From an uncultured Microbulbifer sp. (GTDB lineage Bacteria > Pseudomonadota > Gammaproteobacteria > Pseudomonadales > Cellvibrionaceae): DNA of 64,000 nucleotides. Positions 37,014 to 64,000 of this stretch are shown here, in pieces (positions within the stretch are counted from its first letter, which is position 1; every line of letters starts with the position of its first letter). Made by a program: the position numbers and the translations under genes. The stretch spans positions 527,954 to 591,953 of the forward strand of contig NZ_CANNGQ010000004.1 of NCBI RefSeq assembly GCF_947504145.1, in the 5' to 3' direction. The notes beneath the pieces were generated by a model. It did no database searches and was not told the origin of the DNA. It saw only the letters and a program-made list of their open reading frames with translations.

Positions 37014-40000
37014 GTGTTTGTGCGTAATCGCTCTTCGTCGTCAAAAGGGTTCCGTTTCTCTTTTCGTAAAATTCGCGGTGCCGCCCTCGCGGAATACCTG
37101 CCCATAATATCCATCGGTCTTCTTGTGGGGACGGTCGGGGTACAGGAGTATGGCGGGGTTGTCCGGGAGCATATTGCCGAGTTCTCGGAGCAGATCGCAT
37201 CCAATTATTACAAGGGCTGGTTTTATCCGGACGAAGACGAGTACATATCTTCGCACGGCGGTGGTACGGGCAATCCCAGTACCGGGGGGCCAACCGATCC
37301 CGGTGATCCGTCCGATCCGCAACCGGGTGACCCCACCGATCCCGGCAATTCACCGAATCCAGGGGAAGACCCGCCCCCGGTATTTAACCCTCTGCCCTCG
37401 GACCCAGTTGGCGGTGGCCCCATGTGTCCCGATGGTGGGGCGAGTGGAGGAGCAGCCCCCAGCGCCGCCCCCATCAATACTTTTGCCGGTAACCCGATCA
37501 ACTTCGGCAATGGCAACAAGCACCAGGCCGAACACGATTACCGTCACTACCTGGATAACCCGCTGGTATTTACCCGCTATTACAACAGCCTCCAGCAGGA
37601 TCAGTCCCGCACACTGGGCTACGGCTGGCAACACAGCTACCAGCGGCACCTGCGTATCGAGCAACAGGAGTCGGATGCGCAACGGATACATGTCTTTCGG
37701 GATGACGGCGCCTATTACCGCTTCAACCATGAGGACGAGCGCTGGTTCGCGGACGGCGTGGTCGATCGGCTGACCCAAACCGACAACGGCTGGCGCTACA
37801 CCACCGTGCAGGGTGCGATTGAAACCTACGATGCAGACGGTCGCCTCCAGTCCATTCAATACACAGGCGGTACAACACACACGCTTACCTACCGGGATAC
37901 ACGGCTACAACGTGTCGAAGACAGCCGCGGCCCCGCCCTGAAATTCGAGTACAACGCTTCCGGCACTCTCGAGCAGGTCACCCTACCCGGCAATCTGGCC
38001 CTGCACTTTGACTATGACACCCACGGTAACCTGAGCGGCTACCAGAAAACCGACCGCAGCGCCTGGCAATCCGTCTCCCGAATCCTGAGTGCCAGTGATG
38101 CGACGTATCACTACGAACACACAAAGTTCCCCCACGCCCTCACCGGTATCACCGATGCCGATGACAAACGCTTCGCCACCTGGGATTACGACGCGCTCGG
38201 CCGCGCAATTCTCAGTCGCCACGGTGGCAAAACCGACCAGATTAAAATTGCCTACAACAAAGACGGCACCGTCACCACCACCAACGCCATGGGCCTGCAC
38301 ACTACCTACCACCTGGAGCAGGCCCGCCCCGGCTACCGACGCTTGGTGCGTGTCGAAGGCCAGGCAACCCCCACCTGTCCCAACGTGCGGGAACAGCACG
38401 AGTACGATGACAACGGCTTCCTCGCCCTCGCCGTGGATGGAGAAAACAACGCCCTGCGCATGCAGCGCAACGCCCGCGGCCTGATCGAGCGGGAAGAAGA
38501 CGGTCTCACCCACCAACAGGGGCAGTGGCTACCAGTGGAAGGTAGCAGCCTCATCGAGCGCCAGTGGCATACCGACCTGCCATTGATCACCGAAGAAACC
38601 CACAGCCGTTACCACCAGGGACAATGGCAGAGCTACCGTAAAATTGACCATCGCTACGACCCGGCGGGTCGGCGCACCAGCACCATCCACACCGATCTCA
38701 GCCAGCAGAGCTTCCCCTACAGCAGCTACGGCGACACCCGCACCTGGACCTATAGCTACACCGAAAACCCGAGCCTGCCCGGCGTGCTCGAGAGCCTGTC
38801 CATCAACGGCCCCAGAGCCGCGGCTGAAGACGGCAGTGATGATACCTACCACTACACCTTCAACGATCAGGGCCAGATCGCCCGCATCACCAATCCCCTT
38901 GGTCACACCACAGAGATCGATAGCTACGATACCCAGGGCAACCCCACCGCCGCCCGGCTCGCCAATAGCCTGAGCATCAAGCTCCGCTACGACGTGCATG
39001 GCCGGATGCAAAGCCTTACCCGGCAGAGCGCAGAAAAAGAAATCCGCACCCAGTTCGAACACAACCCCAACGGCACGCTCAAGCAGATCTCCTTCGCCGA
39101 CGACAGCTGGCAGCGCTACACCTACAACGACGCCCGCCAGCTTATTGCGGTACACAACAACTGGGGAGAAATCCTCTACATCACCCCCGGTGACATCAGC
39201 GGCAACTGGGCCACCCAGGAGGTCTACAACGCACAGGGTCAACTGGTCCGCAAATCCCACCGCATCCTCGACAGCCTCGGCCGCATCCATCAGCTGATCG
39301 GCAACCACGGCCAACAAACAAAAATCGACTACACCCGTACCGGCCAGCTCAAGACCATCACCCAGCAAGGCATCGACAACCCCAGCCAGCGCCACTACGA
39401 CAGCCTCGATCGCCTTGTCACCAGCATTGACGCACTGCAGGGCAAAACCCAGATCGACTACAGCCTGCAGGGCCCCGTCGCCCAGGTCACCGACGCCGAA
39501 GGCAGTAAAACCCGCTACATCCACAACGGCTTCGGGGAAATCATCTGGCGCGGCAGCGACGCCAACGGCGAAAGCACCTACTGGCGCGACCCCGCCGGCA
39601 ACATTGTGCGCCAACAAAGCGGCGAAAACCCGAATCAAACCCAGTGGCACTACGACCACCTCAACCGACTCGCCAAAGCCGACTACCCCGGTGAAACCGA
39701 AGACAGCCTCTACCAGTACGACCAGACCGATGACATCCACGGGAATGGCATTGGCAAACTCACCGCGCTGATCGACCACCACAGCCGCACCGACTACCAG
39801 TACAGCGACCTTGGGCAGGTCACCGCAGAAATCCGCAGCTTTAACAGCGCAAGCAAAAAAAACAGTAAAAAACAAAACGCCACCGCCAGCGACACCCAGA
39901 TACTCCGCTACGGCTACAACGACCATGGTGCTCTGGCTTACATCCAATACAACAACGGCGCCCAGGCCCGCTACCACTACAACAAAGACCGAATCGAAAG

Positions 40001-41654
40001 TGTCAACTACATCGACAATACAGGCATCAAACACCCCATCCTCGACGACATCGAATACCAGGCCTTCGCCGGCCCCAGCGCCTGGCAGACCGGCAATGGC
40101 CTCGACTATCGCAGAGAAAGCGACCTTGACGGACGTATCACCAATATCCAGCTAACCAACAACGGCGAAACCGTCTGGCAGCAGCAGTACGAACACGACG
40201 CCACCAATAACATCACTGGTATCGAAAAGATCGAGCAGGGTCAAAGCCAGCAAACCAGCTACAGCTACAGCTACGATGACCTGCACCGCCTCACAGGCGA
40301 GCAACGCAGCGCAACAGAAAGCATCGATAGCTACACCACCAGTTACACCTACGACGGCGTGGGCAATCGCCTGTCCAAAGTCCACAACAGCCAGAAAACT
40401 ACCTACGAATATGCCAAAGGCAACCGGCTAATCAGCTGGGAAATCCCGCAGTCAGAAAAGCCAAATAATCCAATAAATCAAGGATTGAATCAGACTAAAG
40501 AAAGCCGGGGGCTGCCAATTCAGACAGCCCAGCAACCCCAAAGAAGCCTGCAAATCACGGGAGATGGTGACCTGGAAGGGCGCATCCACAACCAGAAAAA
40601 TCGTCTGGTAGCCTACTTCAAGAACGGCAAACGGCTAGCTGAATACCGCTACACCGGTAATGGCCAGCGTATAGAAAAGCAGCTGCAAGCAAAGCGCACC
40701 CGCTATCAATATCTACTCACCACCCAGTTGGCGCAGGAAACAGAAAAAGACAAAGCTCAGCCGCAGAAAACAATAGAAACCCACTACCTGTGGCTGGGCT
40801 CAACGCCGATAGCCCTTATCAAAAGTAATACCGGAAAGCAGGTGATTGTCTACCTCCACGCCGACCACCTAAATACGCCAAAAGCGGGCACAGGCAAGGC
40901 AGGAGAAATTAATTGGCGCTGGGAAAGTAATGCATTCGGTATGTCGCTGGAAAATCCAACTGTCAGCTTAAAAGACCAAGTCACAATTAACTTGAGATTT
41001 CCGGGTCAATATTATGACCAGGAATCCGGCCTACATTACAACTACTTTAGGGATTACGACCCGGTATTAGGGCGTTATATACAGAGCGATCCGATAGGGC
41101 TGAGAGGGGGGATAAATTTACATAATTACGTAAAAGGAAATCCCGTAAGGCTGGTAGATAAATTGGGTTTAATGGTAACTGCAGTGCTAGATACTTCCTT
41201 GAACCAATTATCAGTATACGACAATGATACCGGGGATAAATATATAGTGGCTGCGTTTACTGGGGGGCATATCGATCCTGAAACTGGCGCGATTATTTCA
41301 CCTGGGACAGGGAAGGAACAGCCGGCACCGAAAGGCAACTACTATATTGTGGATAATCCAAATCCGATTGCGGGCAGAGAAGATTGGTTTGGGTTGTTCT
41401 ATATTGACGAAAGAGTTGATGACTATTTAATAGATGGTGGAGAGGATCGAAGCGGAATTCGATTGCATGGTGGTGGTATTAGCCACGGCTGTGTGACAGT
41501 AAATAATTATACTGCGAATAAAGCTGAACATTGGAATAATGTTCATTCATTGATACACAGTACGAAGACTGAAACCCTAGAGTTCATTCAGGGGCCGCAC
41601 TTTTGGAATCCCAAGGGTGAGACGAATTTTTATGGTGTCTTAACGATTAAATAA
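37014..41654 (+). CDS. RHS/YD-repeat polymorphic toxin with prepilin-like N-terminus and C-terminal Tlde1/DUF2778-like L,D-transpeptidase-type toxin domain
   Basis: N-term 'FRKIRGAALAEYLPIISIGLLVGTVG' (G|xxxxEY + TM). Pro/Asp/Gly linker. Many YD repeats. RHS core end 'YYDQESGLHYNYFRDYDPVLGRYIQSDPIGL'. CT 'GIRLHGGGISHGCVTV'. Confidence 0.9.
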   Translation: MFVRNRSSSSKGFRFSFRKIRGAALAEYLPIISIGLLVGTVGVQEYGGVVREHIAEFSEQIASNYYKGWFYPDEDEYISSHGGGTGNPSTGGPTDPGDPSDPQPGDPTDPGNSPNPGEDPPPVFNPLPSDPVGGGPMCPDGGASGGAAPSAAPINTFAGNPINFGNGNKHQAEHDYRHYLDNPLVFTRYYNSLQQDQSRTLGYGWQHSYQRHLRIEQQESDAQRIHVFRDDGAYYRFNHEDERWFADGVVDRLTQTDNGWRYTTVQGAIETYDADGRLQSIQYTGGTTHTLTYRDTRLQRVEDSRGPALKFEYNASGTLEQVTLPGNLALHFDYDTHGNLSGYQKTDRSAWQSVSRILSASDATYHYEHTKFPHALTGITDADDKRFATWDYDALGRAILSRHGGKTDQIKIAYNKDGTVTTTNAMGLHTTYHLEQARPGYRRLVRVEGQATPTCPNVREQHEYDDNGFLALAVDGENNALRMQRNARGLIEREEDGLTHQQGQWLPVEGSSLIERQWHTDLPLITEETHSRYHQGQWQSYRKIDHRYDPAGRRTSTIHTDLSQQSFPYSSYGDTRTWTYSYTENPSLPGVLESLSINGPRAAAEDGSDDTYHYTFNDQGQIARITNPLGHTTEIDSYDTQGNPTAARLANSLSIKLRYDVHGRMQSLTRQSAEKEIRTQFEHNPNGTLKQISFADDSWQRYTYNDARQLIAVHNNWGEILYITPGDISGNWATQEVYNAQGQLVRKSHRILDSLGRIHQLIGNHGQQTKIDYTRTGQLKTITQQGIDNPSQRHYDSLDRLVTSIDALQGKTQIDYSLQGPVAQVTDAEGSKTRYIHNGFGEIIWRGSDANGESTYWRDPAGNIVRQQSGENPNQTQWHYDHLNRLAKADYPGETEDSLYQYDQTDDIHGNGIGKLTALIDHHSRTDYQYSDLGQVTAEIRSFNSASKKNSKKQNATASDTQILRYGYNDHGALAYIQYNNGAQARYHYNKDRIESVNYIDNTGIKHPILDDIEYQAFAGPSAWQTGNGLDYRRESDLDGRITNIQLTNNGETVWQQQYEHDATNNITGIEKIEQGQSQQTSYSYSYDDLHRLTGEQRSATESIDSYTTSYTYDGVGNRLSKVHNSQKTTYEYAKGNRLISWEIPQSEKPNNPINQGLNQTKESRGLPIQTAQQPQRSLQITGDGDLEGRIHNQKNRLVAYFKNGKRLAEYRYTGNGQRIEKQLQAKRTRYQYLLTTQLAQETEKDKAQPQKTIETHYLWLGSTPIALIKSNTGKQVIVYLHADHLNTPKAGTGKAGEINWRWESNAFGMSLENPTVSLKDQVTINLRFPGQYYDQESGLHYNYFRDYDPVLGRYIQSDPIGLRGGINLHNYVKGNPVRLVDKLGLMVTAVLDTSLNQLSVYDNDTGDKYIVAAFTGGHIDPETGAIISPGTGKEQPAPKGNYYIVDNPNPIAGREDWFGLFYIDERVDDYLIDGGEDRSGIRLHGGGISHGCVTVNNYTANKAEHWNNVHSLIHSTKTETLEFIQGPHFWNPKGETNFYGVLTIK

Positions 41655-41655
41655 T

Positions 41656-42126
41656 ATGATGAAAAAATTGTTCTGGATTCTATTGCTTTCTTTCGCTGTT
41701 GGTATGGCGCTATTTTATTTTTTAATAGAGAGTAAAGTTCAGAGGTTTTCAGAAAGTGTAAGGCCTGGCTTGCGATCTGTGCTTGTTGAAATATATAAGT
41801 CGAAATTGTTTGGCGGATACTGGGAAAACCAGCTTATATTACAAATTGAAAGGGCTAAATCGCTTGCTCCATGGAATAGGGCTGAATTTTATGGTGCGAT
41901 AATTATTTATTCTGATTTGGATACATCAAGGGCGTACTTGTTTGTCACTACAGTTGGGAGAGATAGTGCTGCGATTGAGATAATGTCGAGCGATAAATAT
42001 ATCAGTTCGATAGAAATGGAAGATTATGAAAGGCATGAGTTTAATGAATGGTTTCAAGAGATAAATAGGGTGCGTTCGCTTTTTGAGCTTGACAAGCTGA
42101 ATGGTAGTGATTCATCCCTGCCGTAA
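41656..42126 (+). CDS. Candidate immunity protein (N-terminal TM/signal anchor, predicted periplasmic)
   Basis: Starts 1 nt after the RHS stop. 'MMKKLFWILLLSFAVGMALFYFLIESK' anchor. AT-rich small gene typical of RHS/CDI immunity genes by position. Confidence 0.65.
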   Translation: MMKKLFWILLLSFAVGMALFYFLIESKVQRFSESVRPGLRSVLVEIYKSKLFGGYWENQLILQIERAKSLAPWNRAEFYGAIIIYSDLDTSRAYLFVTTVGRDSAAIEIMSSDKYISSIEMEDYERHEFNEWFQEINRVRSLFELDKLNGSDSSLP

Positions 42127-43089: not shown

Positions 43090-47072
<3,983 letters not shown>

Positions 47073-47076
<4 letters not shown>

Positions 47077-47906
47077 AGACTTTATTTGATAGCTTAAGTC
47101 ACAAGCTATGGGTAAAGTTCATTATTATTGCGATTATCTTCCTTCCGTGGATCCTGTCTCTTAACTTAGTACCAAAATACGGATATATACTCTACTCAAA
47201 AACTGACAGCCCTGTAAAAGGCGCTCATATACTTGTAAGGCATTCAAGAGACTACCGCTGGACTTTAGGAATGGAAAAGCTAAGTGGCCAATGCACTTTA
47301 TTGAACTATACGGTTAGCAGCAGTGATGGAAGATACGGGATCGGTAGAGTGCCCATTTCACGGCAGGATATTATCAGTTTAAGAAAGGTCTTAAGCTACA
47401 AGGGCGCAGTATATATTCCACTTGAATATAATCCTGAAAACGGCATAATCGAAAAAATATATGAGGCCCACTGGCCACCAAAGGTGGTAACAGGTAGGCC
47501 TCCAACACTAAAAGTTTATGAAAAGAATTTCAATATTGTTTCCCGTATACAACGTATAAGTGATTTCCTTTTTCTTTTAACTGATACATGTCAGTTGAGT
47601 GAAGCTCAACTGACAGAGCTGAAAAACGAAATATATAAACTCGTTGCTCCAGAAGTTAGATTGTTGTTTCCCCTTTGGCTCGCATACCTCTCAAATAACC
47701 CCTACCCAGAATCCACATCTGGCATGCCCTACGATCCATTAAAAATTAAAGTGGATGTGCTATTTATTCGTGTAATGGGAGACTCTGTGAGATCGAAGTT
47801 AAACGCTGCCTCCTATCCGAACGCGACCGAAAAATGCCCGTATCTCTATAGAGGCATAGAAAAACCCCAAAATATTACTTTGGACAAAGATGCATGTTTT
47901 CGTTGA
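47073..47906 (+). CDS. Candidate immunity protein for the RHS2 tip (N-terminal TM anchor)
   Basis: GTG start overlaps the RHS2 stop by 4 nt (GTGA at 47073-47076). 'LWVKFIIIAIIFLPWILSLNLVPKYGYIL' anchor. Confidence 0.65.
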
Positions 47907-47947: not shown

Positions 47948-48406
47948 GTGGACCCAAAGATGTCATTTCGTTGGACTTTACTGATATTTTTGCTGATAAG
48001 CCCCTTTACAAAAGCTGTTGATCTGCACATACAGTGGCCTGATGGTTGGCAGTATAAAGTGGTTGACCGCAGCGATATCTACTTGCAGTTAGTCGCGATA
48101 AACAAGGGTGATTCCGGCCGAATAAACCAGTCTCTCGACATCCAAGCGATACAGCTTCGCCCTTTCGATAGAAAACCTGTGCAGCGTCCTAATGCCATGG
48201 ACATCAAGAATTTAACAGAGTCTTTACGCGAACAAAGCATGTCCTTAACGGAAGAGAAAACGCTTAGAATAAAGACGCTACAAAAAAACTGGGTTACTAT
48301 TTTATATTCACTCACAGAAAGTCATCAGCATCGACAAATAAGCGTCAACAGATGGAGGTGGTTTTTTCCAGAAAAGATCAATGGTAACAATAACAGCAAC
48401 TATTGA
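47948..48406 (+). CDS. Hypothetical secreted protein
   Basis: Signal peptide 'FRWTLLIFLLISPFTKAVDLHIQWPDGWQYKV'. Confidence 0.55.
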   Translation: MDPKMSFRWTLLIFLLISPFTKAVDLHIQWPDGWQYKVVDRSDIYLQLVAINKGDSGRINQSLDIQAIQLRPFDRKPVQRPNAMDIKNLTESLREQSMSLTEEKTLRIKTLQKNWVTILYSLTESHQHRQISVNRWRWFFPEKINGNNNSNY

Positions 48407-49962: not shown

Positions 49963-50035
49963 AGAAACCACCAACGAAGTCGAAAATCGTGATCCATACT
50001 GCGGATTGTTTATAGTAAACTAGTTGGTGGTTTCT
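49963..50035. repeat. Inverted repeat with 13-bp perfect arms
   Basis: AGAAACCACCAAC (49963-49975) and GTTGGTGGTTTCT (50023-50035). The right arm overlaps the stop of the OmpA gene. Confidence 0.85.
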
Positions 50036-50963: not shown

Positions 50964-50964
50964 T

Positions 50965-52273: not shown

Positions 52274-52704
52274 TCTTTACCAGTAATCGCGGTGATAAGC
52301 CCTTCTCGCAGCATCACGAATTGGTGGGAGTAGTTTCCATCCGTGAGCGCGGTTTTGCGATGGCCCTGCTCTGATACTGCGATGGCCTGTTTCACACGGA
52401 GAAGAGAAAGGTTGTACCAGCCTTTGGGTTCCTCCGGGTTGAGGTCTATGCATTTTTGGTACATGGCTTCTGCAGCGGGAAACTGGCCAGTCCTCACATA
52501 GATGTTGCCAAGGCGAAAATAGATGTCGTAGTTATCGGGCATTGCCGCTTTGAGGCTCAATAGCACTCGCTCTGCTTCACTATAGATCGCTCTGTTATAA
52601 AAATGCTCCGCCAGTTTCATATCTTCAGTGACGGATTTCGGCGTGTTTTGGGCGCAGGCAGTGCAAAGGGTCGTAATGAGAAGAATGGTTAGGATCTTAT
52701 ACAT
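52270..52704 (-). CDS. tadD: TadD-like TPR lipoprotein
   Basis: Start reassigned to MYKILTILLITTLCTACAQN (lipobox). TPR 'DIYFRLGNIYVRTGQFPAAEAMYQKCIDLNPEEPKGWYNLSLLRVKQ'. Confidence 0.8.
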   Translation of the reverse strand: MYKILTILLITTLCTACAQNTPKSVTEDMKLAEHFYNRAIYSEAERVLLSLKAAMPDNYDIYFRLGNIYVRTGQFPAAEAMYQKCIDLNPEEPKGWYNLSLLRVKQAIAVSEQGHRKTALTDGNYSHQFVMLREGLITAITGKE

Positions 52705-53014
52705 GGATGGTATCTCCGACTTTCCAGCTCGGCTGGTAGTTCTGTAAATATATTTCGACCGTGGAGGTTGCACCGAAACATACGGCGACTCGATTCTTCT
52801 TCATGGGAGTGATTGATTTCAAAATCTTGTTGTTGCTATCGAGAAAATAGACAGCGATTGCATGGGGGAATCCAAAGGTATGGACTGACCAGCAGGGCTT
52901 TATCCATATTCCATCGTGTTGTCTGGCGGATTTGCTGAACAACCCCTTTAATCGTCTAATGAACGTATTGGCGGGGTACAAATCGGGCGCCGCGCCGCGG
53001 TTCGGTACTGCCAT
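52697..53014 (-). CDS. DUF192 family protein
   Basis: 'NTFIRRLKGLFSKSARQHDGIWIKPCWSVHTFGFPHAIAVYFLDSNNKILKSITPMKKNRVAVCFGATSTVEI'. Confidence 0.8.
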   Translation of the reverse strand: MAVPNRGAAPDLYPANTFIRRLKGLFSKSARQHDGIWIKPCWSVHTFGFPHAIAVYFLDSNNKILKSITPMKKNRVAVCFGATSTVEIYLQNYQPSWKVGDTIHV

Positions 53015-53015
53015 G

Positions 53016-53894
53016 CTAGAGCGCCTCCATGAGCTTCATCGCGATTGGAAAGAATATGACGATAAAGGTTGTGGGGAAGATAAATGCAACCAGTGGAAAA
53101 ATGAGTTTTACAGGGGCTTGCATAGCCAGTTTTTCCGCCTTCTGAAACCGCTCCATCCGACGTTGATCCGACTGGATTTTGAGCGTGTTTCCGACCGATG
53201 CACCGGTCTTCTCTGCCTGAATAACAGCGGAAACAAATGCGTTAATCTCAGAAATATCCAGGCGATCTGCCATCGTTCTCAAGCCATCATCGCGTGACAT
53301 GCCCGCCCGTAAATCCCGCAGGTACTTTCTGAACTCGATTTTCATGGGCGATTCTGGACCTTTATCGACCGATTGCATGATAGCGCCCGTAATGTTCAAG
53401 CCTGCCTGTGTGGACATGGTGAGAAAATCCAGATAGATGGGAAGGGAGCGAACTAACGCCTGTTCTCGCCGGGTACGTATATCTCTTACACTCATCATGG
53501 GCATGAAGTAGCCAACGCCAGCACCTACCAGAGCGTAGAGATAGTCAAATGCGCCCAGCATTACGGATAGGCAAGAAGCGATGGCAGCCATGAGGACAGC
53601 GGACGTGATTTGCAGGCTGAAATACTGTGCTGGTGACATCACGTAATTCAGCCCGGCTTTGATCAGGGACTTCTGATACCGAACCAACCATTCAACCGGT
53701 AGCCGTTCCCCGATATAAAAGGAAACCAGATTGACCAGCGGCCAGATCTTCTTGAGCTGCGAAGGAACAGGATCAAGGTACTCCCGTTCTTCTGTTGGTA
53801 CCTCTTCTTTGATGCCCTTGACGGACGTATACAGTAGGACTACGGAAACGGGGATCAGCAGCAGTACCCAGTACTTGTATAACTCTAGGTTCAT
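53016..53894 (-). CDS. tadC: Tad inner-membrane platform protein TadC
   Basis: T2SSF-type 'LPIYLDFLTMSTQAGLNITGAIMQSVDKGPESPMKIEFRKYLRDLRAGMSRDDGLRTMADRLDISEINAFVSAVIQAEKTGASVG'. Confidence 0.93.
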   Translation of the reverse strand: MNLELYKYWVLLLIPVSVVLLYTSVKGIKEEVPTEEREYLDPVPSQLKKIWPLVNLVSFYIGERLPVEWLVRYQKSLIKAGLNYVMSPAQYFSLQITSAVLMAAIASCLSVMLGAFDYLYALVGAGVGYFMPMMSVRDIRTRREQALVRSLPIYLDFLTMSTQAGLNITGAIMQSVDKGPESPMKIEFRKYLRDLRAGMSRDDGLRTMADRLDISEINAFVSAVIQAEKTGASVGNTLKIQSDQRRMERFQKAEKLAMQAPVKLIFPLVAFIFPTTFIVIFFPIAMKLMEAL

Positions 53895-53897
53895 GAT

Positions 53898-54749
53898 TCA
53901 CACATCGATGGTGACAATTTTTTTGATGAATTTGTAGCCGGCAAATTCAAGCAGAACAACCGCCGCGCACGCGATCCAACCGCGCCAGTCGGTAAACAGC
54001 AGCGACATGGTCTCAGGTTCGATGCCGTAGATCGCAAGCCCGACGGCAATGGGTAGAAGTGTCATCACCCATCCCTGTAATACGCCCATGGCGGTTAGAC
54101 TCTTTATCTTCCCTTCCATTTCAATGCGTTTTCTGATGGTGTCCGCCAGGCGCTCAAGTACATCGGCGAGACTACCGCCTACTTCGCGGGATATTTTCAT
54201 GCCTGCGACCACGAGCTCCAGATCGGGTATGGGTACACGTTGATACATTTCATCCAACGCTTCTTCGAAATTCCTGCCCATTGTCAGTTCGCTTAGAAGC
54301 ATGCCGAACTCCTGGCTTAGAGGGCCGCGAGTCTCTTTTACTACCAGATCTAGCGCACCGGCCAGGTTTAGTCCGGAGCGAAGCATATTTGACATGGACA
54401 ACAAGGCGTCGGGAAGGTCTTTGCTGAATTTCTGGTAGCGAAGTTTGCGGAGTAGCGAAACGACGATCCCGGGAAGAAAGTAAACCACTGACCCAAGAGC
54501 CAGAGATAACAATATGGATTCCGTAAGAAGAAACGAAATCAATACGATCGAGACAAATGCGCCCAGGCTTATAAGCTTGAGTCTTTTGTCATCAATGAAA
54601 ATAAACATCTCTGCCAGTGAATTGCTGGCCGTATGCTTTATCTCCTTGTTGTACTGATTTACCGCCGTTTTGGTAGACCCAAAAACCGCATACCCAAGCG
54701 CGGCGACAGCGCCAATACCAAGAATACTGACAAGGAAAAGCGGGTTCAC
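53898..54749 (-). CDS. tadB: Tad inner-membrane platform protein TadB
   Basis: 'LPDALLSMSNMLRSGLNLAGALDLVVKETRGPLSQEFGMLLSELTMGRNFEEALDEMYQRVPIPDLELVVAGMKISREVGGSLADVLERLADTIR'. Confidence 0.94.
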   Translation of the reverse strand: MNPLFLVSILGIGAVAALGYAVFGSTKTAVNQYNKEIKHTASNSLAEMFIFIDDKRLKLISLGAFVSIVLISFLLTESILLSLALGSVVYFLPGIVVSLLRKLRYQKFSKDLPDALLSMSNMLRSGLNLAGALDLVVKETRGPLSQEFGMLLSELTMGRNFEEALDEMYQRVPIPDLELVVAGMKISREVGGSLADVLERLADTIRKRIEMEGKIKSLTAMGVLQGWVMTLLPIAVGLAIYGIEPETMSLLFTDWRGWIACAAVVLLEFAGYKFIKKIVTIDV

Positions 54750-56458
54750 TGGTTGACACCTTCCCGTCTGAAGATTGACAGGTCTACGGGAATACCGCGC
54801 AAAGAGAGTTTTTCATAAAACTCAGGCACATTTCCGGTTGCTTCAAAGTGCCCTCTGGTTTTTCCATTCGCATCGAAACCAAGCTCCCGGTAGCGGAAGA
54901 TCTCTGAAATTTGTACGGTGGTCCCTTCTACGCCGGTAATTTCAGAAATACTGGTAATTTTTCGGGCGCCGCAGGCGAACCGAGACTGCTGAACAACAAG
55001 GTGTACCGCTGATGATATCTGCTCTCTAATAGCGGTAACCGGGAGGTCCATGCCGGACATCATCACCAGTACCTCAAGGCGGGAAATACAATCACGTGGC
55101 GAGTTGGAATGAACGGTAGTCAGTGAGCCGTCGTGGCCGGTGTTCATGGCCTGTAACATATCCAGTGCTTCGCCACTCCGGCATTCACCGACCACGATAC
55201 GGTCCGGCCGCATACGCAGACAGTTTTTCACAAGGTCGCGGATCGTGACTGCGCCAGAACCCTCCTGGTTTGGCGGGCGCGCCTCAAGCGAGACGACATG
55301 TGGTTTGTTGAGCTTGAGTTCTGCGGCATCTTCTACTGTGATGATACGTTCGCTGTCAGGTATGAAATTCGACAGAGCATTCAACAGGGTTGTTTTACCC
55401 GACCCTGTTCCGCCAGAAATGATGATGTTCAAGTGCTGTGTGACGGCCATCTGAAGAAAGTCGATCATCGGGCGGCTAACCGAACCGAAATTTAGCAGGT
55501 GCTCCATGGTGAGCTTTTCCTGCATAAATTTCCGTATGGTGAGGGACGGGCCACGTATGGCAAGTGGTGGAATAATCGCATTGACACGGGAGCCGTCGCG
55601 TAGGCGGGCATCGACCATGGGTGAACTTTCATCGATTCGCCGTCCAAGGGGCGAGACGATACGGTCTATCGCACTGAGTACCGCTCTGTCGTCGGAGAAG
55701 CAGATGTCTGATTTTTGTAGTGAACCTGACTTCTCAAAATAGATTTCATCGTATGAGTTGACCATGACTTCACTGATGTCGGGATCTGCCAGCAAGTCTT
55801 CCAGTGGACCGAGTCCCACCGCTTCTTCCAGCACCTGCTTGAGTATGTCATTCCGGTCGAGCCCCGTCGTAGGAAAGTCTGGCTCAGTGTCAATGACTTC
55901 GCTCAGTATCCCTGCAGACAAATCTCGCAATTCATCAATGGAGAGGTTGGAGATGTTGGTCCTTCGCAGATCCATGGTTTTGATCAATCCGGCATGGAGC
56001 TTGAGCTTCCATTCTCTCGCCAGCTGAACCTTTGCACTATCCGGTACTGCCGCAGTTGCAGCATCAAGCGCTACTAGCTGGGGTTCCTTCTGTTGCGCGT
56101 ATTCTTGGTCTGGCATGCCAGGCGCGGAGCTTTCCACCGGCGCACGATCAGCCTCCAGGAGGCGGCCATCTTCTATAGTCAGCAGGTAGTCGCCGATTGA
56201 GATGGTTTCGCCATCTTTTAGAGGGCCATATTTTCGGTCAATCTTGATGCTGTTGACCTGAACTTCCGCCCGTTTATCGCCGGATTCAATGAAGATCTGG
56301 TTTCCAGAAGTGGAGACAATGGCGTGTTGCCTGGAAATTCGCCAACCGGCAAGATCGATGAGCGCATCTCGACCCTTGCCGATCACAAAACGATCGTTCT
56401 CACTAAAATACCGCCCTACCGGGGTACCCTTGCGGGTTTCAACGGTGATTTTCATCAT
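54746..56458 (-). CDS. tadA: Tad secretion ATPase TadA/CpaF with N-terminal FHA domain
   Basis: FHA '[29 protein letters not shown]'. ATPase '[38 protein letters not shown]', '[43 protein letters not shown]'. Confidence 0.96.
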
Positions 56459-57768
56459 TATTCCTTGAGCGCGGCATCAATCGTCAGGTTAGCCTGATGT
56501 TCAGTGATCATTTCCCGTGCAAAGTCACTGAGGAAGACGTCTTCTGCGTCTCCGGGTGTGATGATTTTTGGCGTCAGGAGTACAACAACTTGCCGGTCTT
56601 CAATATCGCTGTCTTCAACACCAAATAGATATTTCAGGACGGGCATCTGGCTTAAATAGGCGATACCGCTATTCGCTTCTGAGTCTGCGGTCGAGAACAA
56701 TCCCGAAATGGCAACCGTCTGGTTATGTTTGAGCTGGATAACGGTTTCAGTACGTCGGTTTTTGGTGCCAGGAACGCCGTTAACCGATACGGAAGGGTCG
56801 ATATCACTGAGGTCAACGGATACTTCCAGGTTGATATCGTCCCCGAAAATCGTTGGCAGGACCTCGAGGATCACCCCGTAGTCTTCACGCTGTACACTGG
56901 CTGCGCCAATGGCATTGATGACGGGAATGGGGAAGCTGCCCCCCACGTGAAACACAGCGGGTTCGCCACTGGTGGACGTCAGCTTGGGTGAAGTCAAAAT
57001 TCGCGCGCGCCCTGCACTCTCGAGAAAATTGATGGTAGACAGTAGGTGCGAGGTGATACCGAAATACTGGAAAAAGCTGGTATCGCCGATAGGGACAGTT
57101 TCAACGATCTGTCGATTGATGTCGTCGGGATCAGATTCGTAAATGATGAAGTCGCCGGGTGTTATGGTCTTGTGAAAACCCCACGCCGGACCTGACATGG
57201 AGGTATTCCAATCAATACCGAGCTTGGATACATCGTTGCTGCCAATTTCAACCAGTAATGCATCGACCCGGATCAACGGCTTCTTTGCGAAAGGACGTTC
57301 ACGGACCAGGAACACTGCATTTGGCACCATGGTGCGAATGGCATCCACTACGGGCACATCGCCCTGGTCAATCTCTCCTTCTACCACGAGCCGGTGGTCC
57401 AATGAGTAAGCGCGAAGATTGGGCATATTTTTGGAAAGCATCTGAGCAATGCGGACGTCATCAGACACATAGCGTTCTTCTACATCCACCCAATAGCGGA
57501 CTTCACGGCCACCGTTGCGCCACAGATGTAAACTAGTACTGCCAGCCTTTCCCCCAATGATCATGACCTGGCCATTGTCCAGGGTTTTATAACTGATCAC
57601 GTCAGGTTTGCCGATGGCAACCCGGGTGATCCCTTCAATGTTCAGTACGTGCACTTCTCCCGAGTGTAGAGAGAGTGCGTTGGCTCCATTTTTTGCGTAG
57701 GTGACAGAGCACAGCAAGCTCAATACCAGTACACCAACCAGATAAATACGTTTACAACCTTTCATCAA
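56458..57768 (-). CDS. rcpA: Tad secretin RcpA/CpaC
   Basis: 'ARILTSPKLTSTSGEPAVFHVGGSFPIPV', 'QLKHNQTVAISGLFS', 'VVLLTPKIITP'. Confidence 0.94.
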   Translation of the reverse strand: MMKGCKRIYLVGVLVLSLLCSVTYAKNGANALSLHSGEVHVLNIEGITRVAIGKPDVISYKTLDNGQVMIIGGKAGSTSLHLWRNGGREVRYWVDVEERYVSDDVRIAQMLSKNMPNLRAYSLDHRLVVEGEIDQGDVPVVDAIRTMVPNAVFLVRERPFAKKPLIRVDALLVEIGSNDVSKLGIDWNTSMSGPAWGFHKTITPGDFIIYESDPDDINRQIVETVPIGDTSFFQYFGITSHLLSTINFLESAGRARILTSPKLTSTSGEPAVFHVGGSFPIPVINAIGAASVQREDYGVILEVLPTIFGDDINLEVSVDLSDIDPSVSVNGVPGTKNRRTETVIQLKHNQTVAISGLFSTADSEANSGIAYLSQMPVLKYLFGVEDSDIEDRQVVVLLTPKIITPGDAEDVFLSDFAREMITEHQANLTIDAALKE

Positions 57769-58690
57769 CTACCCTTGTATGCATGTCTTCCTGCGGCTCA
57801 TCGCTTGCGGAGAGCGTCATTTCACGCGCGATTCGAGCTAGCCTTCCCTTGGCATTTCGTATGGCCACACGGTGAGATTGTTGGGAGGTGCTCAGAGATA
57901 AACTTTCCAGCTTTGGAACCAGCACACCATCTTTTGCGTTGCCAGCCTGATAGACCGCAACGGTATTGACGTTACTGTCATTCAGTTCGTAGCGCGGGTT
58001 TATCTCATCCCGCCGGTTGCGCAACAGGAATACCAGGTCACCTGCTCCATCGGCCTCAAATACATCGCGCACCGTTTCGCTGGGCACGCCGAGGGTAATG
58101 GTTGGGTACTGCGCGGTTTTGTACATCCCTGGGAATTTGGCGTCGGCAGTGGTGAACTTGCCTGTGGAAAGGACCTTTACCCGCTCAAGTAGCAAGTCAA
58201 GTTTTTGACCTTTGTCGGTACGGACCCCCAAGTCAATAAAGTCACCGGACTCGATCATGTGCTCAATGCTCGAAACGCCGTCCACTTCGAGCGTGATGGC
58301 ACGCTCACCTTCGCTGAGCAAATCCGAGAATCGAGCGATACGTGATACCCCTTCAACGAACTGCCTGAGAAGTGGTTTGCCTGCGCTCATCGGATCGCGC
58401 AGTTGCTTAAACTCAACGGCCGAATATTGATCGGGGACGATCGCACCATCTGGAACATACTCAAATGGAATGCTCTTGATGGTCATGTTCTCCAGGTTGA
58501 TCGGGTCACCGATCGACAGATTACGTTTTGCAACCACAACATTGGTTAGCTGTTGTTCCTTCCGTATCTGGTCGCGAAGCTGCTGCTCTTTCTGGTCGAA
58601 ATAGAATTTGGTCAAATAGATTGCACCTGCGATACACGCCACTGCGAAAATCATCGCGATTGGATATCGAAATCGAAAAAATAACCCCAC
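57752..58690 (-). CDS. cpaB: Flp pilus assembly protein CpaB/RcpC (SAF domain)
   Basis: 'VVVAKRNLSIGDPINLENMTIKSIPFEYVPDGAI...GKPLLRQFVEGVSRIARFSDLLSEGERAITLEVDGVSSIEHMIESGDFIDLGVRT'. Confidence 0.9.
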   Translation of the reverse strand: MGLFFRFRYPIAMIFAVACIAGAIYLTKFYFDQKEQQLRDQIRKEQQLTNVVVAKRNLSIGDPINLENMTIKSIPFEYVPDGAIVPDQYSAVEFKQLRDPMSAGKPLLRQFVEGVSRIARFSDLLSEGERAITLEVDGVSSIEHMIESGDFIDLGVRTDKGQKLDLLLERVKVLSTGKFTTADAKFPGMYKTAQYPTITLGVPSETVRDVFEADGAGDLVFLLRNRRDEINPRYELNDSNVNTVAVYQAGNAKDGVLVPKLESLSLSTSQQSHRVAIRNAKGRLARIAREMTLSASDEPQEDMHTRVVDERL

Positions 58691-58704
58691 TTGGCCTACT
58701 CCTG

Positions 58705-58890
58705 CTATTCGTCTGTGGGCTGAGAAACCGCGTATTCATACGCGCGGTAATTCTTTTTAAACGCTTCAACCAGGTAGCCAACAATCGACTTGTCGTCTAG
58801 TGGCGGAAGTGGGGTGAAGCATGCCGCGCCGACGATCAGTACGCCGACAAGATATTCCGGGAAAGATTGGCCGCTGTTTTTATTGATCAC
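58705..58890 (-). CDS. Small prepilin-like protein in the Tad operon
   Basis: 'MINKNSGQSFPEYLVGVLIVGAACFTPLPPL': G|QSFPEY + hydrophobic stretch. Confidence 0.65.
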   Translation of the reverse strand: MINKNSGQSFPEYLVGVLIVGAACFTPLPPLDDKSIVGYLVEAFKKNYRAYEYAVSQPTDE

Positions 58891-59648
58891 CGGCTTCCCT
58901 TCCTTGAAATCGTTGCGATTACCCTGGTCTTGTCGTCGATGTTGAATGCATCCATTCGGATACTCTGCGAATTGTTCTCCGCAGTGAACATTGCGGCTTC
59001 TGTATTTCTACTGGCCTGGTCGACTACACGCTTCTTATTGATCTGATAGTGGTGCTTTGCGTAATAGGCGGTGTAATAGTCGAGGGTACGTTCAACGCTG
59101 TCACCCGATTCCAACCAATAGGAATCGAATACATCGCCATTGGATCGCGAAGTTACTACGGAAACAATATCCGCTCGGCCCAGTGCAGGAAGTTCATGGC
59201 GTACTACAGATTTCACGCCTTTTTCTAGATATTCCGGCAAGGGAGAAATTCCTACCAGAACCTGGGATCCCGACAGACCTCGCGGACCGACCTGCACGGT
59301 AATATTGTGGCCTTCCTCTAGACGCGAAAGTACCTTCCATTCCCCAATTATTGTTTCAAGATAAGGCTGGTCTGTATCTGCGTCATCAACGTTGTGGGTC
59401 CAGTACTCGCGATAAAACGACAGAGCTTCGCTGCCGTCATCTGGAGATGCAAATTCGTATGCGACCAGTGGCAGTCCATTGACCTCCATTTGCTCGCTGA
59501 CGATATTCACCTGCGCGTCATCGGGAAAGACCATTTCAAGCGCGTGTACCGGTGTCGCGACTAGTGCGATAAGGAAAGGTACCGCAAACGCATTAAATAC
59601 GCTTAAAGGCCATCTATTCACACGCGGACTCCCGGTTACTGCCGCCAT
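58887..59648 (-). CDS. Hypothetical secreted protein in the Tad operon
   Basis: Start reassigned to MAAVTGSPRVNRW. Signal 'FAVPFLIALVATPVHALEMVFPDDAQVNIVSEQMEVNGLPLVAYEF'. Confidence 0.65.
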   Translation of the reverse strand: MAAVTGSPRVNRWPLSVFNAFAVPFLIALVATPVHALEMVFPDDAQVNIVSEQMEVNGLPLVAYEFASPDDGSEALSFYREYWTHNVDDADTDQPYLETIIGEWKVLSRLEEGHNITVQVGPRGLSGSQVLVGISPLPEYLEKGVKSVVRHELPALGRADIVSVVTSRSNGDVFDSYWLESGDSVERTLDYYTAYYAKHHYQINKKRVVDQASRNTEAAMFTAENNSQSIRMDAFNIDDKTRVIATISRKGSR

Positions 59649-60393
59649 TGAAAACCCGGCTACAAGGCACGACATCCCGCTCGACGATTCCTGGTTTGAA
59701 ATCGTCCCACTCTTCAAATCCCACAGTTGACGCCAGATTGGCCAGTTGATCGAAAACACCGTTGTTAAATGCACGCTCACCAAGTACAGCGCCGTCGAGA
59801 GTGGATTTTATGTCGTTAGATGTCAGTCGTCGCCAGCTCTGGGTATAGAGTGCATTGTTGGCACGCGGGGAAAGTGATCCAATTTGTGCAAGGTTGCGTT
59901 CGGTGGCCAGTTGATAGTTGATTGTGGCGTTAACGAGGCCATTTTGTGGCAGGTCAAAATCTATCAGTGCGTTGTTGAGAAAATTGTCTCTTGCACTATA
60001 TGCACTTCCATCTGGTGTGCTATTGGTATGGGTGTGTTGTGCAAACTGTCCATTATTGATCAGAAGTAGTGGAGCGTAGTCGCCGTTCTGATCCGTATGG
60101 AAATAGAGAGGAGATACTTTGGCATTCTGGGTGCCGGATGCAGTGCGATCGCGAACGCTATCAAAACCGACAAATTCCTGCGAAATAAGTCGACGATTGA
60201 GTTCGTAGCTGATTTCGGTGGGAGTTTTATCTGTTTTTGCTGTCTCCCATGCGGCATAGCGGGCACTTTCGTAGGCGCGGTGCCGGACATCACCGGTTTT
60301 ACCGAGATAGGCGATCATAAACACCAAAGGTACTAACACGAAGCTGGCGACAATCAGAAATTCCAGCATGGCCTGGCCGCGGTATTTGTGCAT
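59614..60393 (-). CDS. tadE: TadE-like pseudopilin
   Basis: 'YRGQAMLEFLIVASFVLVPLVFMIAYLGKTGDVRHRAYESARYAAWETA' (G|xxxxEF + TM). Confidence 0.85.
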   Translation of the reverse strand: MHKYRGQAMLEFLIVASFVLVPLVFMIAYLGKTGDVRHRAYESARYAAWETAKTDKTPTEISYELNRRLISQEFVGFDSVRDRTASGTQNAKVSPLYFHTDQNGDYAPLLLINNGQFAQHTHTNSTPDGSAYSARDNFLNNALIDFDLPQNGLVNATINYQLATERNLAQIGSLSPRANNALYTQSWRRLTSNDIKSTLDGAVLGERAFNNGVFDQLANLASTVGFEEWDDFKPGIVERDVVPCSRVFNGGSNRESACE

Positions 60394-60394
60394 A

Positions 60395-61972
60395 TCAACC
60401 TCCTACCAGGGCTGTCAATGTCAGCTTCTGTTCGTCCGTCATACTCGAGAGCCGTGGTTCCCAGAACGGGTTGTACGCATTGCCAAACTCCACTCTTCCG
60501 TCTAGCCGGCGAGTATTTACGCGCATCCAGCTATCACTCTGACGGCGAAAAAAAACAGCGGAACCGGCCGCTCCATGGTATGCGTTGTCGGCGGCTCCGG
60601 CGTATTCGCCCAACGCGTGGGAGTCGCTTACATTTCCTGAGATATCTGCAGCACTGGCCACGTGACCGGTGGATTTTCTTAGATAAATGAAAGCCGGGCT
60701 CTGTTTTTCTACATAGCCTTCCTGGCGGAGATTTCTGAACGGTTGTAGGCCTGTGCTGTCGGACGTGTTGAGGCTGTCGGAGTAGTCATTCGCGAGATCG
60801 TTACAGTCCAGTGCGATGACATCCATCAGGATGAAGCCACCGTGATTGCGCGCCCGATTTCTGTTTGCGTACTCTACATCTGTGCAGGAAGAACCCCGCG
60901 GATTTACTTCCCAGTGGGAGCGATCTTCATGAATGATGTGGTGGCCTTCATCATTTTCCGGCCCGGTATAGGCGTGGCCGACACCGAGCTTCACGCGCTC
61001 GCGATGTCGGGTGGTTCGGGTGCCCCTAAACAGTCGCCAATATCGGGTTGAGGAGTGAAGGGAAATGGTGTCGACGGCACTCCAGGAGGTGAAGGGTGCA
61101 CGTCGATTCACGGAGTTGGTGTCCCCCCCCAGAACGGTTTCACCCGCGCGCTCAATAGACAGCCGGGAGAATAACGGAATGCCACTTACGCTTTCCGCAG
61201 GAATACCGGGCAGCGTGATCCTGCTTGGCATACCCGGAAAGCTGAATCGGTATGTTCTCGCTTCGGAGAAGCCATCTCTCGACTCCATGGTGACATTTCT
61301 GAACTGTCTGCAGCGGGCCGCTGTTTCATTCTGGTTGGAGTGATAGTTTCCGCTATTGCGAACACTATCCGATATCTCCAGGCAGTCGTTGGGCCCATGA
61401 AACTCTTCCAGGTGTGCAGTGGTCGCCGCAGCCACCGAGACTTCGGCGGCCGAATAGTTTACGTCGGGGTCATTTGCTCTGACGACATCAGAGAGTATCT
61501 CCTGAGCGATCAGGCTGACCATCGGGGTGGCGAATTCTTGCTGCCGGGAAACCGCATCCGAATAGGCTGCGACAACTTGCGCAATTCCTGGCGTTGCGGA
61601 TTCGATACCGGATTGAATACTGTTGGAAACACTCTCGATATAGCCCGTTACGGTATTTACGTACGGTATCCATGTACCAATATCATCGATTGTCTGGGCG
61701 AAGGTGTTCAGCATTCGTGACCAGGATGTCATGGTGACCACCTGCGCCATAGTGATCTGATTGGCTACCAATGCCCGGTTCGATAGTGCAACAAAGTTAT
61801 GATTTTGCGCATAGACATTGGCGACGCTATAAGCTGCGGCGTCGGCCGTATTCTGTAGGCGTGTAGAGGCATTGGTGATCTGATAGGCGTTGAATACATA
61901 CTGGGCGGAGAGTAATACGCTCAGCATCAGCGCCAGCAGATAGGGGATTACATTCCCTTTCTGGCGATTCAT
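60395..61972 (-). CDS. tadG: TadG-like pilus assembly protein
   Basis: 'KGNVIPYLLALMLSVLLSAQYVFNAYQITNASTRLQNTADAAAYSVANVYAQNHNFVALSNRALVANQ'. Confidence 0.85.
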   Translation of the reverse strand: MNRQKGNVIPYLLALMLSVLLSAQYVFNAYQITNASTRLQNTADAAAYSVANVYAQNHNFVALSNRALVANQITMAQVVTMTSWSRMLNTFAQTIDDIGTWIPYVNTVTGYIESVSNSIQSGIESATPGIAQVVAAYSDAVSRQQEFATPMVSLIAQEILSDVVRANDPDVNYSAAEVSVAAATTAHLEEFHGPNDCLEISDSVRNSGNYHSNQNETAARCRQFRNVTMESRDGFSEARTYRFSFPGMPSRITLPGIPAESVSGIPLFSRLSIERAGETVLGGDTNSVNRRAPFTSWSAVDTISLHSSTRYWRLFRGTRTTRHRERVKLGVGHAYTGPENDEGHHIIHEDRSHWEVNPRGSSCTDVEYANRNRARNHGGFILMDVIALDCNDLANDYSDSLNTSDSTGLQPFRNLRQEGYVEKQSPAFIYLRKSTGHVASAADISGNVSDSHALGEYAGAADNAYHGAAGSAVFFRRQSDSWMRVNTRRLDGRVEFGNAYNPFWEPRLSSMTDEQKLTLTALVGG

Positions 61973-62109
61973 TTGAAATCCATTTCAAAATATCGGCGAC
62001 AAGTGTCTGTTATTCGGCGGGTTCGGCAGAGTCGAATCCTGGAATTGCATTTGAGGGCAATCAGCCGGCAGATAGGTAATTCCTGCCGGCCAATAGTGTC
62101 TGGCAGTGC

Positions 62110-62409
62110 TTAGTTGCCGCCAGTCTGGTTGCCGGAAGAGTAGTTGGACAGGTCCTTGTCCGTATTGGCCTCGTCAACCGCGTCATCTGCAGATGTTTGT
62201 GCCGCGGTAATTTGGGCGTCTCCAGATTGTCCGGACATTTCCTGAGCAAGGCCGCCCATCTGATTGCGCAAGGTATCCCCAAACAGTCGGAATACGCCGA
62301 TTGCGGCGACGGCAATCAGGGCGACAATGATGATGTACTCGGTCATTCCCTGGCCGAGCTGCTTTTTGTGGCCATTCAAGTATTTCGGTTTCTTTGTGCG
62401 GATTAACAT
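62110..62409 (-). CDS. flp: Flp-type major pilin
   Basis: 'KKQLGQGMTEYIIIVALIAVAAIGVFRLFGDTLRNQMGGLAQEMSG': canonical G|xxxxEY. Start reassigned to MLIRTKKP with AGGG upstream. Confidence 0.92.
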   Translation of the reverse strand: MLIRTKKPKYLNGHKKQLGQGMTEYIIIVALIAVAAIGVFRLFGDTLRNQMGGLAQEMSGQSGDAQITAAQTSADDAVDEANTDKDLSNYSSGNQTGGN

Positions 62410-62823
62410 TAGATCCCTCTCAATTATTTCGAGTTGACGTGTGCAACTCATTTAATTCCATTAAATATTGGGCCGCTTCGCAAGCGACGGCGGGAAACTA
62501 GCTAGTTGTGCAAGTGTTCGCAATGAAAAATTTTACGTTTGTGATCTGATTCACTTTTTATTTTTTTGTATAACTGGTTTGTTTGTACCATGTAATTACG
62601 TCTCAGTTGTTCCTGGGTTACTGGACGCTGTTACCAATTACGGGCACTGGCGCAGGCTATTTCGTTTTGTGGAACACTTGTGCCAAGTTTTAGTTCTCGT
62701 AATTGTATGTAAGGCCAATGTAATTTATTTACGCCATTTGCTGGTTGGAACATCAATATTCCAATGAAACTGACAAATGTATATGATCGCCGCTAGAAAG
62801 ACCTGATCGGTTTACCTTAAAAA

Positions 62824-63046: not shown

Positions 63047-63664
63047 GTGATGATTAGAGGGTTCTGTCGGCGAAAACCATGCCGTTTGCTCTACTTGGTT
63101 TTTGGTTGGATCGGTAGTGGCGTTTTTTTGTGCTTTTTAGATGTATGCGTAGCTTCGGCGCCAATACAATCGAGGCAGCTGCAATTAATTCAAGTGGGAA
63201 ATTCATACCAGATAGGTGTAGATACAGATCCCCAATGGAGCTGGAAAATCGCTAGCGGGAATAGCGCACCTGTGTTTATTGCAGTTTCTCCGGAGCACTA
63301 TTATCCACCCACAATAGTTACCTTTAGTTATTACACAAAGACGAAACTGCCCGGGACAAATCAAGCGTTAAAAGGTGCTGCATTGGAGGCAATAGTTCGG
63401 TCTGCCAGAAACTTTGGTTTCGACATCAAGTCGCAGGATGTTGTGCTACAGCCTGTTAAATATAGAAATTTTTCAGGTTTCAGCTCGGCATTTACCGCTG
63501 AGCATCAAAAAACTTTGCAAGACGTAGAAGTTCACGTTGGTAGGGCGGTTTCCGGTCATCCGGTTTCCATGACGGTAATCACCAGGCCCGCAAAACTACC
63601 GCATCTGTCTCATCTCATTTCTCGGATCGGAAATAGTTTCGCTCCGATTAATGATACGAATTAG
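63047..63664 (+). CDS. Secreted/periplasmic hypothetical protein, possibly PsbP/Mog1/DcrB-like fold
   Basis: N-terminal hydrophobic signal. 'FSSAFTAEHQKTLQDVEVHVGRAVSGHPVSMTVITRPAKLPHLSHLISRIGNSFAPI' has the beta-beta-helix pattern of such proteins (weak). Confidence 0.55.
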   Translation: MMIRGFCRRKPCRLLYLVFGWIGSGVFLCFLDVCVASAPIQSRQLQLIQVGNSYQIGVDTDPQWSWKIASGNSAPVFIAVSPEHYYPPTIVTFSYYTKTKLPGTNQALKGAALEAIVRSARNFGFDIKSQDVVLQPVKYRNFSGFSSAFTAEHQKTLQDVEVHVGRAVSGHPVSMTVITRPAKLPHLSHLISRIGNSFAPINDTN

Positions 63665-63707: not shown

Positions 63708-64000
63708 ATGTCCACAACAATAAAGTCTGTGTTTTCCCGACAGATAGGCTCTGCACTTACCGAGTATCTACCAATACTTGTTATTGTTCTTTCAGTCGGC
63801 ATGCAGGTCGCATGGCGCACTTTTGGTGATGAAATCCGGGCGCAGGGTGGCAATGTTTCCAAAGAAATTGCCGGAGTTCCGCAATCCGCGGTACCCAGCT
63901 CCGGTAGCGGCGGCCATAATCCTGGCGGCACAGGCGGCGGCACAGGCGGCGGCACAGGCGGCGGCACAGGCGGCGGCACAGGCGGCGGCACAGGCGGCGG
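63708..64000 (+). CDS. 5' end of a large protein with Flp-pilin-like N-terminus and Gly/Thr repeat linker; 3'-truncated by window
   Basis: ATG with AAAGG upstream: MSTTIKSVFSRQIGSALTEYLPILVIVLSVGMQVAWRTFGDEIRAQGGNVSKEIAGVPQSAVPSSGSGGHNPGGTGGGTGGG... It is not in the ORF track because no stop is reached. Confidence 0.8.
   Translation, partial: MSTTIKSVFSRQIGSALTEYLPILVIVLSVGMQVAWRTFGDEIRAQGGNVSKEIAGVPQSAVPSSGSGGHNPGGTGGGTGGGTGGGTGGGTGGGTGG
63921..64000 (+). repeat. 12-bp tandem repeat (ggcggcacaggc)n encoding GGTG
   Basis: At least 6 consecutive units continuing to the window end. Confidence 0.95.

Follow-up and report, generated by a model that had tools for sequence, protein, structure and literature searches.

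The 64,000-nucleotide window analysed here comes from an uncultured Microbulbifer sp. (RefSeq assembly GCF_947504145.1, contig NZ_CANNGQ010000004.1, positions 527,954 to 591,953 of the forward strand). Contig C4 of a 4.36 Mb genome ends with these 64 kb, which carry a Tad pilus locus flanked by two proteins that begin like Flp-type prepilins, one of them continuing into an RHS toxin. Comparison with other genomes leads us to regard the region as a likely contact-weapon island whose polymorphic toxins take the form of Tad pilins. G numbers stand for genome records, G000 being that of the window and G069 a closed genome of the same genus; the G490 record matches Zhongshania aquimaris and the G400 record matches Endozoicomonas acroporae.

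A Tad locus and its pilin-headed flanks

The genes that matter most for this reading are listed below; percentages give identity to the G069 counterpart.

37014..41654, plus strand: toxin 1 (1546 aa, GTG start)
41656..42126, plus strand: candidate immunity protein of toxin 1 (156 aa, N-terminal transmembrane segment)
50034..50963, minus strand: OmpA-like/DUF4892 protein (Pfam OmpA 1.4e-14)
50965..51504, minus strand: secreted protein of the tad operon, function unassigned (homologue at the same place in G069; similar gene in G400)
51458..52273, minus strand: TadE2 minor pilin (Pfam TadE 7e-9)
52270..52773, minus strand: TadD, TPR lipoprotein-like (assigned by sequence; 76%)
53016..53894, minus strand: TadC (87%)
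53898..54749, minus strand: TadB (85%)
54746..56458, minus strand: TadA ATPase with FHA domain (Pfam T2SSE 3.7e-63, FHA 1.5e-8)
56458..57768, minus strand: RcpA secretin (assigned by sequence; 89%)
57752..58690, minus strand: CpaB/RcpC (TIGR03177 2.8e-31)
58705..58890, minus strand: second small Flp-like pilin, 61 aa, GQSFPEYLVGV (G490 and G348 have a small Flp-like open reading frame, ORF, in the matching position)
58887..59783, minus strand: secreted protein of the tad operon, start uncertain, overlapping TadE1 (59%; no Pfam match)
59614..60393, minus strand: TadE1-like minor pilin (G|QAMLEFLI head; no Pfam match)
60395..61972, minus strand: TadG-like minor pilin (Pfam Tad 1.7e-4, exactly at the cut-off)
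62110..62451, minus strand: Flp major pilin (Pfam Flp_Fap 1.2e-4, below the cut-off; 84%)
63047..63664, plus strand: secreted PsbP/Eag-fold protein, 205 aa, candidate chaperone/adaptor of the headed toxins
63708..64000, plus strand: toxin 2, partial (prepilin head G|SALTEYLPI, transmembrane helix, start of a (GGGT)n linker)

Toxin 1 opens with a 22-aa basic leader and the motif G|AALAEYLPI, followed by a transmembrane helix, a Gly/Pro/Asp linker, DUF6531, the RHS core and a Tlde1 (LD-transpeptidase-type) tip. Pfam recognises RHS_repeat (3.6e-26), DUF6531 (1e-15) and Tlde1_dom (1.9e-10), and TIGR03696 also matches; with DUF6531, RHS repeats up to the core motif and a variable tip, 37014-41654 is an RHS polymorphic toxin, and its G069 orthologue is about 70% identical. 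Pfam detects no PAAR domain in the protein, whose closest solved structures by sequence are Rhs effectors of the type VI secretion system (T6SS) such as Tse5, Rhs1, RhsP and Tse15. One base past the toxin stop codon starts the 41656..42126 gene, whose position makes it a candidate for the immunity protein and whose product has no Pfam match. An earlier sequence-only reading of this DNA, which had described one flank as an RHS toxin with a tip and an adjacent candidate immunity gene, is thereby upheld.

The same reading had given both flanks a common G|xxxxEYLPI, transmembrane and linker plan, which they do share, and had the Tad genes bracketed by two RHS toxins, which holds for toxin 1 but, judged by its orthologues, not for toxin 2. 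The contig stops at window base 64000, breaking toxin 2 inside a perfect 12-bp repeat (63924-64000) that codes for its Gly-rich linker, and an RHS continuation was not found elsewhere in the assembly. In the full-length G069 orthologue (679 aa) the head leads into a long (GGGT)n linker, a helical stretch and PT-HINT (Pfam 4.6e-15); its C-terminal domain shows, by eye, a nuclease-like motif, and a candidate immunity gene follows. G069 also shares the block order of the window, namely headed RHS, Tad, a protein of the 63,047 type and a second headed protein. The same head-linker-HINT plan, with a different tip, lies beside the Tad locus and the 63,047 homologue of G006, from another genus of the family. 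An RHS identity for toxin 2 was rejected, since both full-length orthologues are PT-HINT and not RHS; on the evidence of these relatives it is a putative HINT-type polymorphic toxin, the window copy being unreadable to its end. RHS repeats are thus, as far as the orthologues indicate, one of two interchangeable bodies, RHS and HINT. The Gly-rich linker occurs in relatives as long (GGGT)n or (GGGGGT)n versions, and its length probably varies between them.

Between these flanks the Tad genes lie where the sequence-only reading had put them: the locus is complete at 50,034-62,451 with all genes on the minus strand, and Flp, TadA, TadB/TadC, RcpA, CpaB and TadE/TadG occur together, as in a Tad (type IVc) locus. 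The small pilin at 58705..58890 was absent from the earlier gene list. Neither TadZ nor TadV was seen within the locus. The OmpA-like gene lies directly 5′ of the headed RHS in G490, G348, G400 and L163, and the TadE2-type gene is itself fused to RHS or HINT in other orders (G146, G552, G559, G571, G600).

The 63,047 protein has homologues 5′ of the second headed toxin in G069, G006 and G400 and 3′ of TadE-HINT in G146 and G559; those of G190 and G373 have no toxin visible nearby. Its structure model (predicted local distance difference test score, pLDDT, 87) has a PsbP/Mog1 fold, and Foldseek returned, with modest scores, PsbP (1.0e-4), the immunity protein Tsi3 (1.4e-3), EagT6 (4.6e-3) and SciW (4.9e-3), the last two having been solved bound to N-terminal/transmembrane regions of T6SS effectors. 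No Pfam family matched at E 0.5, so the Eag/DcrB (DUF1795) family remained unmatched. Because the protein is kept while the tips change (G069 vs G006), a chaperone or adaptor of the head seems a likelier role than immunity. In L107, a G373 stretch, a 63,047-type gene stands beside several related small proteins (10874-16383), with no toxin on the contig stretch; these small proteins look like an immunity-gene array.

Recurrence of headed toxins and their linkage to Tad genes

The design recurs in 10 genera of 9 families and in four kinds of fusion: Flp-headed RHS, Flp-headed HINT, TadE-RHS and TadE-HINT. Tips vary among LD-transpeptidase, Tle1 lipase, PLC-like and nuclease-like domains, usually with candidate immunity genes after them. 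G490 and G348 have complete Tad operons (TadA 67% identical) in which the OmpA-like gene is immediately followed by a headed RHS, of 1749 and 1726 aa respectively, with a Tle1/DUF2235-like tip, and a Zhongshania metagenome-assembled genome has a headed RHS beside Tad in the arrangement of G490. A further family contributes G388, where a 1777-aa Flp-headed RHS with a PLC-like tip adjoins the flp gene. The Endozoicomonas acroporae contig L096 holds, at 10814-18054, a TadE2 fragment, a small secreted protein, the OmpA-like gene and an intact headed RHS.

In G146 the TadE of the tad operon continues as a 1993-aa protein with RHS, HINT-like and HNH-like regions, and a TadE-PT-HINT lies elsewhere. 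When 229 genomes from across the class were searched for TadE, 27 had it, and in five of these (G552, G559, G571, G600 and G723) it is fused to a toxin. G571 and G600 have TadE-RHS-Tle1. The fusion lies inside the tad operon in G552 (TadE-RHS) and in G559 (TadE-PT-HINT, with a 63,047 homologue), and that of G723 is cut by a contig end. One refuting condition set by the sequence-only reading, a lack of co-localisation between pilin-RHS fusions and Tad in other genomes, was checked and did not hold: such fusions adjoin Tad loci in several other families and TadE-RHS/TadE-HINT variants occur in other orders, with a minority of copies away from Tad.

The heads themselves have the sequence features of Flp-type prepilins, namely a basic leader, G-1, E5-Y6 and a hydrophobic helix, and in an alignment of ten heads G-1, E5-Y6 and the following helix are invariant. 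A hidden Markov model (HMM) of the head, run against 392 whole genomes of the order, finds toxin 1 at 1.3e-30 (itself in the alignment) and reaches the genome's own Flp at 1.2e-6. Its remaining matches are mostly small Flp-sized ORFs together with long ORFs opening with the same head, the latter belonging, window aside, to G400, G490 and G348. Because the model finds mostly these two kinds of ORF, the pilin likeness of the heads is judged to be more than chance; the TadE parts of the toxin fusions pass the Pfam cut-off. A PilY1-like match on contig C2 was rejected as lacking a pilin head.

Several counts connect the heads with Tad genes. Among headed long ORFs found without looking near Tad, four of the five in Tad-bearing genomes lie <20 kb from tadA (p = 4e-8, which assumes random placement and ignores relatedness). 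From eight named RHS loci of a scan not using Tad, all three headed ones adjoin tad genes and none of the five headless ones does (Fisher p = 0.018, with a small control and two of the three headed loci being Zhongshania). RHS-like ORFs elsewhere in the family, away from Tad, mostly have Sec-type or other N-termini. Order-wide, TadA presence against headed ORFs gives 3/4 (p = 0.05), weak alone with Tad so common and G400 retaining mere remnants, and a pooled adjacency test (7/8) was set aside, some of its members having been found by looking next to tadA.

Near 36 kb the G+C content drops from about 58% to 41-53% and stays mostly low thereafter, RHS-coding DNA excepted. A dctP-like gene (34,464-35,627) 5′ of the block is found in 47 of the 48 genomes of the genus. 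In G069, a single contig, dctP and a thioesterase gene flank the whole toxin/Tad block; the two genes are about 0.6 kb apart in G095, a relative without Tad, and enclose other genes, not the Tad/toxin block, in G064, G070, G073 and G096. Tad and the headed toxins are on this comparison one island, missing at the same site in relatives. The same two of 48 genomes, G000 and G069, carry both this Tad type and headed RHS (p = 9e-4; the two may share one acquisition, so that independent events are not certain). Megablast of the locus against plasmids returned no match, an Rfam scan of 34-64 kb no families, and an initial scan of genome contigs with a single RHS query nothing confirmed.

A third toxin ORF of the window, RHS2, has no pilin head, and its region comprises the following genes.

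43132..47076, plus strand: RHS2, headless RHS copy, 5′ part missing, with a PLC-like/DUF6765 tip (Pfam RHS_repeat 9.6e-25, DUF6765 8.4e-14)
47073..47906, plus strand: candidate immunity or accessory protein of the RHS2 tip
47948..48406, plus strand: second gene 3′ of the RHS2 tip, secreted

RHS2 is 83.6% identical in DNA to toxin 1 across 2.9 kb, and its tip type is also borne by the headed RHS of G388, where two genes follow the tip as in the window: a 298-aa gene lies in a place similar to that of 47073..47906 (compared by eye), and 47948..48406 has 33% identity over 94 aa to a gene 3′ of the same tip. An in-frame (CCTCGC)n repeat at 43263-43303, read as LALALALA and absent at the matching place in toxin 1, is possibly a slipping, phase-variable or relaxed site. 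On either side of the RHS2 region (42734-43018 and 49635-49916) lie related small transmembrane proteins with a zinc-ribbon-like C-terminus, whose G069 homologue sits between the RHS and Tad genes.

Proposed delivery through the Tad machine and its alternatives

With this architecture, linkage, recurrence and tip diversity at hand, we infer delivery through the Tad machine. The head would be inserted by Sec and cleaved by a prepilin peptidase, and the headed toxin would be packed as a minor (tip) pilin, its RHS cocoon or HINT body remaining periplasmic on the linker. The secreted PsbP/Eag-like protein may hold the hydrophobic head ahead of assembly. TadA-driven polymerisation would then move the toxin via RcpA to the pilus tip, where self-cleavage (by the RHS core or HINT) could set the tip domain free at, or into, the envelope of the touched cell. 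Periplasmic delivery would suit tips that attack wall or membrane (Tlde1, Tle1, PLC-like), and likewise candidate immunity proteins anchored in the membrane. We lean, with moderate confidence, towards a new delivery class: Tad pili armed with RHS or HINT toxins covalently joined to Flp or TadE pilins, served by a dedicated periplasmic Eag-like chaperone, with several origins in Gammaproteobacteria and killing on contact without a T6SS.

A number of observations weigh against Tad delivery. From 25 FHA-type Tad neighbourhoods, some of them cut by contig ends, seven have a pilin-headed toxin, one (G171) a Sec-type RHS and as many as 17 no toxin; four other Tad loci, without FHA, also have none. 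Copy A of G069, a second headed RHS with another tip, lies 2.65 Mb from the block, and the TadE-RHS genes of G571 and G600 are likewise away from tad. In G400 the headed RHS is accompanied by no more of the operon than the TadE2 fragment and two other genes, and TadA is missing at 1e-100; its tad remnants look like decay of the machine, the operon apparently deleted. The RHS beside Tad in G171 (L117/L118, 9854-13774) bears a Sec-type signal and not a pilin head. The window genome itself has a T6SS, its TssC genes lying on contig C2. Finally, a folded RHS shell would need to pass the RcpA pore, which it may not be able to do. The G171 RHS sits after a TadE2-like gene and a thioredoxin-like gene, and its Sec signal may be a second way to load RHS onto Tad.

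Among the alternatives, the one that survives best, unlikely as we hold it, makes the heads pseudopilins of a piston-like secretion apparatus, be it Tad or the type II or type IVa machinery of the genome, that releases the toxin to the medium instead of carrying it to a touched cell on an extended pilus. Seef et al. left open a type II secretion-like action for the Kil system (PMC8460266), and the single A24 prepilin peptidase detected in G000 is encoded away from the tad locus, so the heads could be shared with other pilin systems. Yet they are Flp-like (TadE-like in other orders) and mostly sited with tad genes; the candidate immunity genes and the wall- or membrane-acting tips are compatible with either view.

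The proteins might instead be pilus-tip adhesins, or envelope-opening enzymes that aid the pilus, given that other pili are known to have minor pilins bearing large adhesive modules (PMC12075869) and that Tlde1 and lipase tips could work on the cell's own envelope. We find this quite improbable: tips differ on a conserved body among close relatives (toxin 1 of G000, G069 A and G069 B), one tip can appear behind different heads, PT-HINT belongs to the pretoxin domains, and variable tips followed by candidate immunity genes are the usual polymorphic toxin signature.

Very little credit goes to the view that these are ordinary RHS effectors of a T6SS or other system, merely sharing a mobile island with Tad, even with a T6SS in the window genome, some headed copies away from Tad and the island absent from most of the genus. 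T6SS delivery of the headed toxins is disfavoured: no PAAR domain of the kind typical of T6SS Rhs effectors was detected, T6SS genes are not nearby, and the sheath gene TssC is absent in five of the seven carriers checked (G069, G400, G490, G348, G146; present in G000 and G006); hitch-hiking also leaves the prepilin heads and TadE fusions unexplained. Least credible of all is an N-terminal helix serving only as Sec anchor or export signal with a fortuitous prepilin likeness, for which Sec-type signals in other RHS of the family and in G171 beside Tad might be cited, but against which speak the invariant positions of the ten heads, the reach of the head HMM to the genome's own Flp and the TadE fusions passing the Pfam cut-off.

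Known systems and significance

A close parallel for the proposed toxins carried as Tad pilins is the Kil system of Myxococcus xanthus, where contact-dependent killing is shown. Work on it supports minor pilins as interchangeable pilus tips that contact killing needs (PMC12075869), and the toxin was left unidentified (PMC8460266). Both have Tad machinery and minor pilins with large variable extra domains, proposed for Kil at the pilus end (PMC8460266, PMC12075869). Kil killing is linked to a needleless type III secretion system (T3SS), whereas here toxin and candidate immunity gene are encoded with pilin fusions; none of the translated products of the Tad locus was noticed to resemble a T3SS component, and no genome-wide search for T3SS was made. 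The word Rhs has 0 occurrences in the two Kil papers (PMC8460266, PMC12075869), which mention no RHS or HINT domains.

T6SS Rhs effectors (Tse5, Rhs1, RhsP, Tse15) likewise have an RHS core with a cleavable C-terminal toxin, and their N-terminal transmembrane helices are held by Eag chaperones of PsbP-like fold; here there is a prepilin head, no PAAR was detected, and the Eag-like protein, which matches no Pfam family, has a signal peptide and is presumably periplasmic, unlike T6SS Eag. Polymorphic toxin systems (Zhang et al. 2012, PMC3482391) have the same modular order, with a delivery part at the N-terminus, RHS or PT-HINT in the middle, then a variable tip and an immunity neighbour, but neither pilins nor Flp or TadE are mentioned there as delivery parts. 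In Streptococcus sanguinis PilB/PilC, as described in PMC12075869, a pilin helix presents a large extra domain at the pilus end; the known modules are adhesive (lectin, VWA) and not polymorphic toxins. No account of pilin- or TadE-fused RHS or HINT toxins was found in the open-access literature, subscription papers and preprints being outside the search. The components are known; their combination and recurrence appear, provisionally, to be new.

If Tad delivery is correct, the Tad pilus would join the known delivery routes of polymorphic toxins, and the question of how killing by a Tad pilus can work, left open for Kil, would have a concrete answer. Having toxin and pilin in one protein, with a candidate immunity gene next to it, makes the idea directly testable in a named environmental strain such as Zhongshania aquimaris, and the heads provide a simple means to predict armed Tad loci in genomes.
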